DNA of 64,000 nt from an uncultured Ureaplasma sp. (GTDB lineage: Bacteria > Bacillota_I > Bacilli_A > Mycoplasmatales > Mycoplasmoidaceae), in contig CADAPK010000001.1 of assembly GCA_902789825.1 (NCBI GenBank), forward strand, positions 124,001 to 188,000, read 5' to 3'. A model generated the notes under the pieces. It did no database searches. It was not told the origin of the DNA and saw nothing but the letters and a program-made list of their open reading frames with translations. Positions 5,326 through 14,475 of this stretch are shown here, in pieces (the stretch's first letter is position 1; each line of letters opens with the position of its first letter). The position numbers and the translations under genes were made by a program.

Positions 5326-7233
5326 TTATTTTGTTGTTATTTCTTTTCAATTTATTAGTATTGTTCTTATTGTCTCAATTTGCTCTTTTAAAAGTTTTTC
5401 AAAATTATTTTCGAATGAAGCATAAAATAACTTAGTTTCTTCTAAGTTTTCAAATATTTGATTATTTTGTTCGTTTTTAGAAATTTTAATATTTCAATTC
5501 AATTCATTATCGCTATGTGCTAATAAATTTCTCAACAGTGTTAAATTATCTAAACATAAAAGATCTTTATGTTTAATTTTTGTTTGGTTACTATTTCTCA
5601 TTTTATTTAATTTATCTGAGCTTTCAATGCAAGCAACACGATATATTTTATTTTTTAATACTTTAAAATTAATATGTAATAAAAAAAAACATAAACCGTC
5701 ATCAGTCATTTTTTTTAATGCATTTAATCCACTTGTTGTATTATGCTTTTCGTTCCGTAATATTGTAGCATAACTTTTTATTTTGTTAGACAAACCATTA
5801 ATTTTGTCATGTGTTTCATCCGGTTGACAACTTAAAAGATTGCATAATTGCTCAATAATTGGTTTATTTTTTTGATCATTTCTCCAATTTTCATCCTTAA
5901 ATTTTTCCATAAAACTATCCCAATCGGTGGAAGTACCATCATAGAGACACGACAATTTAGAAGCAATTAATAATTTATTCCCAATATTTTCTTTAAATTT
6001 CCTTTTCATTGTTTCATATAACGATATATAATAACTAGACATTGTAATATCATAATAAAGATAAATGATTTCATCATATGAAATCATTTTATCTCTATTA
6101 AGTAATAGTTTTTTATCTTTTTTTATGTTCTTTGCATTTTCGGCATTAATAATTACTGTATCTTTGCGATTTAAAAAGTTTTTAAGTACGAAAGGGGAAT
6201 GAGTAGTAATAAAAAATTGTTGTTTAATTTGATTATTTTCCATATTTTGCGATGTTTCAATAATGATTTTAGAAACTATATGTTGTTGATTAGGACAAAG
6301 AGAATTTTCTAATTCATCAAATAAACAAATGCAATTTTTATTTGTAAAAAGTAACTTAAGCAAAATAGAAAAAATGTGTTTTTCGCCTGAACTTAATTTG
6401 TCAAAATATATTCTGTCTGATTGTTTAATTGCTAACGTATTTTTTGGACTATTATCGTTCGTTGTTATCTTTGATACAAAAAAATTTCTATTCTCTGCGA
6501 AATAAATAAAATCATTATCATTATTGGGAAGTTCAAATTTAAAATATCTTTTTAAAATATCATTGTAAAAATAATATTTACTATATAACAAAACGACTGC
6601 AGATAATTCTGACTTCTTCCGATCATCGACAGTTTTGTCCAATGCTTTTAAGATAATATCACGAGTAAAAATCATAGTTTTTCACTCATTACGAAGTGTC
6701 AAAATATTATTTTTCACATCTTCCGTTTCCGATGCAACATTATGATTTTTAGTAACTAATTCTATCTTTAATGAAAATAAATACTCGACAAACTCATTAA
6801 TATAAAATTTGTCCGTCAAAAATAAATGCTGTTTTTTGTTATTTTGGCGATTTTTTTGGAAAATACAAACAAAATCTTCAAAGAAAAATAAAATTTTATT
6901 TTTCATTTTACCAATTTCGTTATCCATATTAATTTTTTTGTTAGCTTGTATAACAAAAGATTCTTTAAATTCTTTTCATTTTTCCGCCGCATCACCTAAT
7001 TTCAAATTTATTTTATAGTCGAGTTTATTTTTAATATATTGATTTTCAAATGAAAGAATTACTTCTTCCAATAAAGTTAATAATGTTGTTTTTCCACTTC
7101 CATTTTTACCTATTAAAATTACAAATTTGGCAGTTGTTATTTTAGTAGCATCGGTACTAGTAAAATCAAATTCCTTTTTGTCTAGATTTTTACTTTCCTC
7201 TTTTCAATCGAATACTATTTTTTTTATATACAT
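5326..7233 (-). CDS. ABC/SMC-type ATPase with C-terminal HEPN-like motif (copy 1)
   Basis: The protein has 635 residues with TGA read as Trp. Motifs seen: Walker A GKNGSGKT (42-49), a signature-like LSSGEKH (280-286), Walker B CICLFDE (301-307) and an H-loop ITTHSP (342-347). This is the layout of the AAA_15/AAA_21-type ATPases found in OLD, RloC and many phage-defence proteins. A linker with DWDSFMEKFKDENW follows. Near the C terminus is LLRNLLAHSD, an R-x4-H motif (R568, H573) typical of HEPN ribonuclease domains. The gene is 34 bases downstream of the HIT gene on the same strand. A paralogue of the same architecture lies at 12619-14475. The ATPase fold is well supported; RNase activity and a defence role are inferred. 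Confidence 0.8.
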
Positions 7234-7267
7234 AAACTTAAACCATTGTTTAAAATTAGGATGTTTT

Positions 7268-7696
7268 TTATTTGATCAAATACCTATAAATATCACTTAT
7301 CTTTTTCACTTTAATTTTTCCATGATTTAGACTAAAGCCTTCATTTTCTTTATATTTAGGCATAATATGAAGGTGAAAATGAAAAACTTGTTGTCCAGCA
7401 ATTTTACCTTGGTTGGAAACATAGTTGTAACCTAAAGGTTTAATTGGTAAAGATTTATTTAATATTTTTATTACTTTATTACTTAACTTTACAATTGCAG
7501 ACAATACTTTTGGTGGGGTATTTTGTCAATCACAATAATGTTTTTTGGGAATGATTATTGTATGCCCATCGCTAACAGGATTTATATCAAGCAAAGCAAT
7601 TGCTTTGCTATTTTTAGCAATAATTAAAGCGGGAATTTGTTTTTTTACAATTTGACAAAAAATGCATTTATTACTTGCCTTTTTGCATTTATTCAT
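7268..7696 (-). CDS. HIT family nucleotide-binding protein
   Basis: A 142-residue histidine-triad protein. HIT proteins hydrolyse or transfer nucleotides from nucleoside phosphoramidates and similar substrates. The N terminus holds CIFCQIVKKQIPA, the usual start of the bacterial HIT fold, followed by DGHTIIIPKKHY, and the catalytic triad reads H-F-H-L-H-I-M. Two further cysteines (KCKKASNKC) may help form a zinc site at the N terminus. The start is ATG at 7696; one TGA is read as Trp. The gene ends 34 bases before the ATPase gene and could be co-transcribed with it, but HIT genes are usual in Mollicutes and the pairing may be chance. Confidence 0.9.
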
Positions 7697-7778: not shown

Positions 7779-8060
7779 TTATTTTACTTCTTTAACTTCA
7801 TCATAATTTGCATAAAATTCGACTTCAATCTTTTTATCCGATGACATATTATTTTCTTCATGTGTTATCGCGCCAATGTATATTGGTTTGTGATCGTTTG
7901 GTTTATCACTCATATGAGCCCCGATCATATTAGCACCAATTGATGAAATATCCACACCTTTGTTTGCTAAAACTGCTTTCAATGCATCAATCCATTCGTC
8001 ATAATTGTTAGGTTTATCGTTTGATGTACCGCCAACATTATAAAGAATTTTAATTTTCAT
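7779..8060 (-). CDS. Orphan 93-residue protein
   Basis: I do not recognise this protein. It starts MKIKILYNVGGTSNDKP, is soluble-looking and acidic, and has no signal peptide, membrane segment or cysteines. The order looks like strand, Asp-rich loop, helix (EWIDALKAVLANKG), then a second strand-rich half ending EVEFYANYDEVKEVK. A good ribosome-binding site (GAAAGG) lies 8-9 bases before ATG 8060, which supports real expression. The HIT gene lies 82 bases downstream. The 480 bases upstream appear to lack intact genes. Confidence 0.6.
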   Translation of the reverse strand: MKIKILYNVGGTSNDKPNNYDEWIDALKAVLANKGVDISSIGANMIGAHMSDKPNDHKPIYIGAITHEENNMSSDKKIEVEFYANYDEVKEVK

Positions 8061-8544
8061 GAATTTTTACCTTTCTACTTTCATTTTATTAATATTATGG
8101 TATGTTTTTGAATATTTCTACTAACAAACAATATTAGGTCTAAATAAAATATTCTTTGTAAATATTCTCTAATCTATCGAATACTACGATTTTTGAAGCG
8201 AAAAAACATTTTTAAACAATAAAAAAAGTGCATATGCAAGGATTATAAAAACTATTGGTAAGACTAAAACTATAAAAATAGTGAAAACTACGATTTTTTT
8301 CGTGGGATGAATTAAACTTACACAAAGAAAATTGGAAATATTGATAATTGTTGTTGAATTTACTTATTGCAAATAATAATTGCTTGGACTAATTACAAAT
8401 AATGTCCAAATCAAATCATCTTAAATCTAGCATAATTAAGATAAAATTTGTTTTTCGGTTTCACAACAAAAATATTTACAAAAACACACAAATGTCCTAC
8501 AATTAAAAAAATTAATTAAATTCGTAGTAGAGGTCGTAAATTAT
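8061..8544. other. Long spacer without an intact gene
   Basis: This 484-base gap separates two divergent genes. I see no RNA gene. A 67-codon open stretch without a good start (8173-8376, plus strand) reads into KTTIFFVGWIKLTQRK. The short motif IFFVGWIK resembles IFIGWIN in the similar spacer at about 11630, so both may hold decayed copies of one small hydrophobic protein. The right-hand end contains the promoter of the next gene. Confidence 0.4.
8475..8503 (+). promoter_or_regulatory. Predicted sigma-A promoter of the secreted-protein gene
   Basis: TTTACA at 8475-8480 and TACAAT at 8498-8503 are separated by exactly 17 bases. The gene starts 42 bases after the -10 box and has an AGAGG ribosome-binding site at about 8529. 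A similar -10 region, with TACAAT followed by an AT-rich leader and a ribosome site, precedes the related pseudogene at 11860. Confidence 0.55.
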
Positions 8545-9044
8545 ATGAAAATATCAAGAAAATCTTTAATTGGATTAAGTGCTATCACATCATTGTTGGT
8601 ATCGGCTAGTGCTATAAGTATTACAAATAAAATGAGAAAAGAGCCTTTTTCATTAATAACTAAAAGTAATATTGATATGTCTTTTCATTCTAGTGAAATT
8701 GATGTTGATAAAAACAATTCTTTAGAACAAGATATTGAAGATGTATTAAAAAAATCTTTAGATGAATTAAATAAAATACTAATCAAAATGGACAACGAAT
8801 TAATCGTTGCTTGTCTTTGTCTTATTCAATTAGATGATGGAAATTACACTGATTGGAATAGTTTTGTGGCAAAATTTAATGATAATGCATGAAAAGAAAA
8901 TGAAAAAATAAACCATTTATTAAAAAATTAGCTGATCTTTTAAAATGTAGTTTTGACGAAGTGAATGCAAAAAAAATAAAATTATCCGGAAAAATAGAAA
9001 GTAATGTTCAAAAGTTATTAAGTGAGAAACAAGAAGCATTATAG
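8545..9044 (+). pseudogene. Secreted protein sharing the ATPase linker domain, frameshifted
   Basis: The first frame gives 128 residues: a signal peptide (SRK, then a hydrophobic core GLSAITSLLVSASA), an acidic spacer, and a segment DWNSFVAKFNDNAWKENEK. That segment matches the linker of both ATPase genes (DWDSFMEKFKDENWRNDQK; NWDSFVAKFKDENWKKEEK). The frame ends at TAG 8929-8931. The match continues in the next frame (KLADLLKCSFDEVNAKKIKL, to TAG 9042-9044), so one base is missing at the six-A run 8922-8927. It may be a pseudogene, a phase-variable gene or a sequencing error. The truncated 128-residue form (8545-8931) could still be made and exported. Confidence 0.6.
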
Positions 9045-9161
9045 TCAAAAAAACAAATTGAACAACAAAGATTTAAGTGTTTTTTTAATCCATTAAACGA
9101 TGAGATTGTACTAGTTTGAAAAATCTATTGTACAACTTAATGTCTCTAATAAAAAACATAA

Positions 9162-9293
9162 GATGGATTAGTTGTTAATAGATCGAATATTGCTTTAAGT
9201 TGTTTAAATAATCAATTAAACATCACTCATAAAGTTAATGCTTTAGATGGAAAAGATCATCGAATAAATGAAAAGTTAATAAACAAAATTTAA
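9162..9293 (+). pseudogene. Further remnant of the ATPase linker domain
   Basis: An open stretch of 43 codons without a start codon ends at TAA 9291-9293. Its sequence ITHKVNALDGKDHRINEKL resembles the linker of ATPase copy 2 (EIYDKINGLDEEIKDQAKKL) at the same place in the domain, including the N-x-L-D core. It follows directly after the frameshifted secreted-protein gene and appears to be a second, older decayed copy. The similarity is short, so this is a moderate-confidence call. Confidence 0.4.
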
Positions 9294-9379
9294 ATCGTTA
9301 AAAAAATTGAAGTAAACAATTGAAACACAAAAAAGAAAATCAAACAAGTTTACAACTTAAGAGTTTTCTTGATAAGATT

Positions 9380-12618: not shown

Positions 12619-14475
12619 TTATTTTGGTTTTAATTTTGTGATTTTGCAATAATTAATAAGTACTAAGCGCATTAATTCAATATATTTTTTTAATAGGGAT
12701 TCTATTTTTTCATTTGTAATATTTTCATTTTTAAAAAAAGAATAAAATTCATTTGTTTCAGCAATTTCATCATCATTAGCATTTTTGAATTGTTCCGAAT
12801 GATTTTTATAATATAAAAAATTTTTTTCTTTTGTTCATGCATGTGCAAACATGTGTCTCAATCTTGTTAAATTAGTTGAGGTTGTTCACGAAGTATCATG
12901 TTGTTTATTTTCAAATAATTTTTTTGCTTGATCTTTTATTTCTTCATCTAAACCGTTAATCTTGTCATATATTTCATTAGATTGACATTTTCAAATAGCA
13001 CATAGTTCCCCAATAATTTTCATATTTTTTTCTTCTTTTTTTCAATTTTCATCTTTAAATTTTGCCACAAAACTATCCCAATTAGTGTAATAATTTTCAT
13101 CTTCTAATTCACCAAGATAAAAAACAATTAATTGTTTTTTGCTTTGTTCAAATCGTTTTTCTTCTATTATTTCACCGTCATTGTTTAATTTCCAATGCTT
13201 AATACATTTAATTTTTTCTATCTCTACAAAATTATTTTTATCTAATTTTTTTTCTTTAATAATTTCATTAATTTTATCTTTATTCTCTTTTAATCAATCA
13301 TCCATCTCTTTATATGATTCGCACCCAACTTTATTCTTTAATTCTTCATAAAGACTTATGTAGTAACTAGAAGTAATAATATCATAATAAAGGTATGAAA
13401 TTTCGTCATATGAAATATTATTATCATTGAGCAATAATTTTTTCTTTTCTGACTTTAATATGTTTTCACCAGTTTCAACATTAATAATTACTGCATCGTT
13501 ACGGTTTAAAAAATTTTTGATAATAAAAGGAGAATGTGTGGCAATGAAAAATTGATGATTTCTTGTTCTTTTTTGCGAATTTTCAATAAAAAAATTAATT
13601 AATTTAATTTGCTCACTAGGATATAGTGAATTTTCTGGTTCGTCTATTAAAAAAATGCTCTCATAATGCAAACACATAATGCTTCTCAAGGCAATTTGAT
13701 GTTTTCATCCCGACGGTAATTGTGAAATTTCGCGTTGATTGCCACATAATGTAAAATTGCAAAAAAATTTCTTCCCATCGGTTTCGGCAGTACCCATTTT
13801 AATATTGTTTTCTTGCAATCAATTTTTATAAATACGTAAAATATCTAAATTTCAATTACATGAAATGTCTTGGATTCCAGTGTAATCAAATCTATTTATT
13901 GCTAAAATATCATCTTTATAACATTGTTTTTGGGATTCATATTTATTTCTATTAAGCTTTTCTTTGTATTCATGATCATATAAATTTTTTCAATATTTAG
14001 TAATTATCGTATCGTTACCATAAGTAGTAGATGTAAAGTACGAATATAAAGGTAAAGGCTTTCATATATTATTCTCGTGAAGAACACGGCAATTTAGTGG
14101 TGTTGTGTAATCAAAAATTTTATCGTTTATTGGTTTTCACTTAAAAAAGAAATAAACCGATCCATCGCATAAATTTATTTTTATTTTCGCATAAGGACAA
14201 TCATTCAATTTATAATTTTTAGCATCATATTCAGGATCAGAAGGATTTTCGTATTGTTTATCATATATTTCTTCATGATTATCAAATAATTTTTGTATTA
14301 ATGTCAATAAACATGTTTTACCACTACCGTTCTTACCAATTAATAAAACAAATTTTGCTATTTTTTCTTTATTTTTTTCATCTAAATAACAAAAGTCAAA
14401 TGGTGGTAGATTATTAAATATTGTTTTCTTCACAATATTTTCATTCATAAAAAAATTAATTTTTTTAATAATCAT
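12619..14475 (-). CDS. ABC/SMC-type ATPase with C-terminal HEPN-like motif (copy 2)
   Basis: An intact 618-residue paralogue of the protein at 5326-7233, with many TGA codons read as Trp. Motifs: Walker A GKNGSGKT (47-54), a signature variant LPSGWKH (253-259), Walker B FLIDEPENS (D278, E279) and H-loop ATHSP. The segment ISYDEI-YLYYDI-SSYYISLYE is nearly identical in the two copies. The linker holds NWDSFVAKFKDENW. The C terminus has LTRLRHMFAHAW, an R-x4-H motif (R540, H545) at the same place as in copy 1. The gene starts 28 bases downstream of ileS on the same strand and may be read from its promoter. ATPase identity is firm; the HEPN assignment and any role in defence are inferred. Confidence 0.8.

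Follow-up and report, generated by a model that had tools for sequence, protein, structure and literature searches.

The gene at positions 8545-9044 of the window (the whole 64,000-nucleotide stretch of contig CADAPK010000001.1 that was analyzed) raises the question of how a domain found in cytoplasmic ATPases comes to lie behind an apparent export signal. The window is part of a draft mollicute genome (G000; 457 kb, four contigs), in which TGA is read as tryptophan (genetic code table 4). Close relatives of this mollicute originate from the ruminant gut. The relatives compared were a sister genome, G004 (goat-reticulum isolate record RGIG3423), and G003 (an uncultured Mycoplasmataceae record). 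All three are drafts, G000 and G004 being metagenome-assembled, and together they make up the carrier genomes of the domain (n = 3). Export of the domain-bearing proteins is predicted throughout. Our analysis indicates, with a probability of roughly 70%, that the gene is in decay and belongs to an exported set, specific to this lineage, with a common 73-residue domain, copies of which recombine between host proteins.

Table 1. Features of the 8545-9044 gene and of the domain copies in the neighboring ATPase genes, in window coordinates.
Feature	Position	Strand	Basis
Frame as it stands, 128 aa	8545-8931	+	Table 4 translation
Signal-peptide-like leader MKISRKSLIGLSAITSLLVSASAIS, no lipobox Cys	8545-8619	+	Sequence; hydropathy
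C-terminal half copy of domain, model positions 46-73	8677-8760	+	HMM, weak, E 1e-4 to 1e-2
First part of full domain copy, model positions 4-40	8815-8925	+	HMM, E 1e-12
Second part of domain copy, other frame, to TAG at 9042-9044	8898-9044	+	HMM, E 8e-11 (8898-9020)
A run, one base fewer than G004 (frameshift)	8903-8908	+	Alignment with G004 ortholog
Possible promoter, TTTACA-N17-TACAAT	8475-8503	+	10 of 12 consensus matches
Domain in AAA_21 ATPase 1 (gene 5326-7296)	5764-5970	-	HMM
Domain in AAA_21 ATPase 2 (gene 12619-14475)	12916-13131	-	HMM; absent from G003 ortholog

The initial annotation had described a cleavable-looking signal followed by a segment of the ATPases, and both parts were recovered. 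The first frame begins with a basic, hydrophobic, cysteine-free N-terminus that ends in VSASA, has its hydropathy peak (1.85) over residues 7-21 and resembles the leaders of other exported proteins. Its basic n-region, hydrophobic core and small pre-cleavage residues fit a predicted type I Sec signal peptide. Two other leaders, L020:10389 and L024:1-482, have a similar hydropathy; a leader family shared with them is not claimed, and the L020 protein has no relative in G000. The leader is followed by a 40-residue spacer that contains the weak half copy. The domain that comes next is common to this gene and the ATPases, and the E-values of its two parts (1e-12 and 8e-11) exclude a chance match. 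The gene end had been placed correctly at 9044, since the second frame stays open up to the TAG codon. Read through, the gene would encode a signal peptide followed by half a domain copy and then a complete one. The product of the first frame is 80% identical to that of L016:10132 in G004.

Two further claims of the initial annotation stood in part. The domain is indeed interrupted where an A run has lost one base, but that run is at 8903-8908 and not 8922-8927. The gene had also been given its own promoter; a match to the consensus lies upstream (Table 1), but the case for a promoter is weak: eight matches of this type were observed in the region against 13.2 expected in shuffles. Within the gene, window positions 8793-8809 form a short perfect hairpin, CAACGAATTAATCGTTG, that is terminator-like on both strands. 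Beyond the gene, positions 9045-9300 are 8.7% diverged and resemble coding sequence that has broken down across several frames, perhaps a remnant of a once longer gene.

The two window ATPase genes (5326-7296 and 12619-14475, both on the minus strand) flank the 8545 gene, one on each side, and match the AriA/PtuA/AbiLi models. The C-terminal parts of the ATPases vary between the sister genomes. The next conserved gene, tlyA, is intact in G000 and G004 and differs by 1.0% between them. In comparison with this nearby gene, the HIT-family gene at 7268-7696 (minus strand) differs by 8.2% from that of G004, and this divergence suggests that local recombination may have taken place beside the variable ATPase. 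The minus strand at 7779-8060 carries a 93-residue frame without a Pfam match, the G004 copy of which has an internal one-base deletion.

The domain was modeled with an iterated HMM of 73 positions built from the fetched loci. Domain counts are lower bounds, based on scans of the fetched loci and on limited candidates scored in the genome searches, and amount to at least 25 copies in G000, at least 24 in G003 and at least 12 in G004. The G000 copies comprise 17 in one lipoprotein-type array, three in another lipoprotein, two in an FtsX permease, one in each window ATPase and the split copy of the 8545 gene. A G003 lipoprotein has 13 copies, and others have five, three and three. Among 320 genomes of the order, only G000, G003 and G004 carry the domain, apart from one marginal match, and a further sample of the phylum yielded no additional carriers.

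Searches of reference collections matched the domain to no known family. No Pfam family was common to more than three of 41 domain copies, the PDB gave no significant sequence or fold match to the domain, a viral fold collection gave no match to its predicted structure, and NCBIfam gave no match when the 8545 gene, one of the lipoproteins and the FtsX protein were compared with it. In addition, phage, plasmid and viral collections contained no domain match, and an origin in such elements was rejected for that reason. Kinship with death domains, raised by weak FADD sequence matches (E about 0.7), found no support in the fold search. An apparent resemblance of the array lipoprotein to Cro/C1 HTH or TniQ was also set aside, as it consists of weak sums over repeats and the fold disagrees. 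AlphaFold predicted the single domain as a confident six-helix bundle (pLDDT 89.5). In the model of a tandem pair (pLDDT 92.8), residues 66-100 are one helix across the linker, so that the final helix of the first copy runs on into the opening helix of the second, 35 residues in all. This model suggests that tandem copies may stack into a rod via the continuous helix. The domain is a new one, helical, 73 residues long and without a match to a known family, and we infer that it acts as a self-folding spacer or a binding module.

The domain lies in frame in unrelated hosts, namely AAA_21 ATPases, an FtsX permease, an LRR/DUF31 protein and several lipoproteins. An exported copy of this domain had been considered unusual, a view that the present results reverse. 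Most copies reside in proteins that carry a lipoprotein signal peptide, in the large loop of the FtsX permease or in the DUF31 peptidase-like (LRR/DUF31) protein; thus export is the usual setting of the domain and the ATPases are exceptional. Related exported proteins were also looked for in the sister genomes, where many exist. This FtsX loop would connect the first membrane helix to the FtsX domain, if the permease has the topology general to the FtsX family. In the ATPases, the copy follows the AAA part and precedes a C-terminal part bearing an Rx4H motif. The C-terminal motifs are of the Rx4-6H type (RNLLAH, RHMFAH and RNILVH), and these parts are putatively HEPN-like. The ATPases look like recipients of the domain. 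In G000, the 17-copy array lipoprotein (L017:4901-11012) has its leader in a different reading frame; the G004 counterpart (L022) is broken further, and G003 has a comparable array lipoprotein that is intact (L020).

At three sites, some orthologs contain the domain and others cleanly lack it, a comparison of filled and empty states in which gain and loss are not separated. First, the ATPase 2 site is filled in G000 and empty in G003. The flanks there show a DNA identity of about 97% on the left and mostly 85-97% on the right, and 15 residues of G003 correspond to the domain and its linkers in G000. No domain copy was detected in this G003 stretch, even with search filters off. About 44 nt are replaced at the junction, which shows no clear target-site duplication; the sequences at the other two sites are too diverged for this comparison. 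Secondly, the FtsX permease has two copies each in G000 and G004 and a clean gap with both flanks conserved in G003; in G001, G002 and G005 the region did not align at the domain site. Third, the DUF31 peptidase-like protein is filled in G003, with two copies, and empty in G004 and G000.

Near-identical tracts connect ATPase genes with lipoprotein genes. For example, the ATPase 2 copy is 98.4% identical over 186 nt to the G004 lipoprotein gene L023, with about 150 nt identical, and the ATPase 1 copy is 92.8% identical over 152 nt to an exported lipoprotein gene of the same genome (L019). Outside these shared tracts, the ATPase and lipoprotein genes are unrelated. In the domain tree, five ATPase copies fall at five separate places, which needs five changes, at least three of them forced by well-supported branches. 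The repeats within one array are alike, as gene conversion predicts. We propose that the copies recombine with one another and occasionally enter a new gene in frame. Copies would spread and be overwritten via recombination or gene conversion between repeats, and the side of the membrane on which the host protein lies would be irrelevant to this spread. Entry into new genes could come about by rare illegitimate recombination and selection, or by a dedicated process.

A broader interpretation, which we put forward tentatively and consider the less probable outcome, is that the self-folding domain is itself a mobile coding element. Such an element would move in frame into and out of unrelated genes, whose products lie on either side of the membrane, by an undescribed mechanism that involves no palindrome. 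A palindromic element was rejected, as no consistent inverted repeat occurs in five filled regions and the copies fold worse than shuffles. With no palindrome and no clear target duplication, the domain is outside the palindromic element classes.

Within the recombining family, the 8545 exported gene is most likely a real but decaying member. G000 and G004 are the two genomes with the gene, and its frame is broken at a different site in each. The A run has six A in G000 and seven in the G004 ortholog, which is out of frame too, through two other single-base indels further upstream. The mismatch rate between G000 and G004 is 1.3% in the 5' part of the gene versus 6.4% in the upstream spacer, and for this reason the gene may be under selection, or may only recently have been broken.

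Many mollicute surface genes are switched on and off by changes in run length. The 8545 gene could likewise be functional and phase-variable, with changes in A-run length switching the exported protein on or off. The small indels of the two genomes lie largely at A runs and at differing positions, the rest of the coding sequence is well kept, and the G000 array lipoprotein is likewise out of frame with its leader, all of which would fit such a switch. However, six or seven A are short runs for slippage switching, G004 has two single-base indels rather than one, and the sequence 3' of 9045 is diverged (8.7%); we therefore regard phase variation as unlikely. The breaks could also be sequencing or assembly errors, because both genomes are metagenome-assembled drafts and A-run indels are a common type of error, in which case an intact secreted one-domain protein would exist. 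This is improbable, since the neighboring housekeeping genes (EF-G, rpsL, rpsG, tlyA, ileS and a dinB-like gene) are intact on the same contigs in both genomes, and substitutions as well as indels surround the G004 break. The role suggested by the initial annotation, in which a domain taken from the ATPase is exported as a decoy, an immunity factor or an effector, is highly improbable. No evidence for these roles was found. In the tree, the domain copy of the G004 gene pairs with an ATPase copy, which would favor this reading, but the pairing has weak support (80/86) and array-lipoprotein copies are equally similar (54% versus 53%). Moreover, most contexts of the domain are exported, each known copy of the gene is broken, at a site of its own, and an exported immunity protein would be in the wrong compartment for a cytoplasmic ATPase.

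The main interest is the recombining domain family, rather than the 8545 gene, and it can be compared with three known systems. Rickettsia palindromic elements (RPE) are short elements of a bacterium with a reduced genome; they lie in frame in proteins unrelated to one another, and relatives differ in whether a site is filled or empty (review PMC10969869). The domain is similar in both respects. However, RPE are about 150 bp and palindromic, whereas the domain unit is about 220 bp, folded and found in tandem arrays, and its DNA is without dyad symmetry (fold z-scores +1.7 and +2.1). The PARCELs of Mollicutes are coding repeats of surface lipoproteins that are shuffled within genomes (Roske et al. 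2010, PMC2996958), and the domain resembles them in this. In contrast to the 25-residue PARCEL repeat, which has palindromic DNA and occurs in many phyla, the domain is helical, 73 residues long, non-palindromic, limited to one genus and also present in cytoplasmic ATPases. Lastly, AAA_21 (OLD/AbiEii-like) ATPases, among them AriA, PtuA and AbiL, are comparable to the window ATPases, which match PF13304 and the PADLOC AriA/PtuA/AbiLi models over the AAA part. These models are without the 73-residue domain, and the ATPase homologs of G003 and G004 include domain-free forms.

The in-frame spread of short repeats in coding genes is already known from Rickettsia, and in surface proteins from other mollicutes. 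In the present case, the unit is a whole folded domain, near-identical copies of which link a cytoplasmic defense-type ATPase to surface lipoproteins. Should the filled and empty sites prove true, this family would be a natural system in which to study the tolerance of a protein for, and perhaps its gain from, domain insertion.
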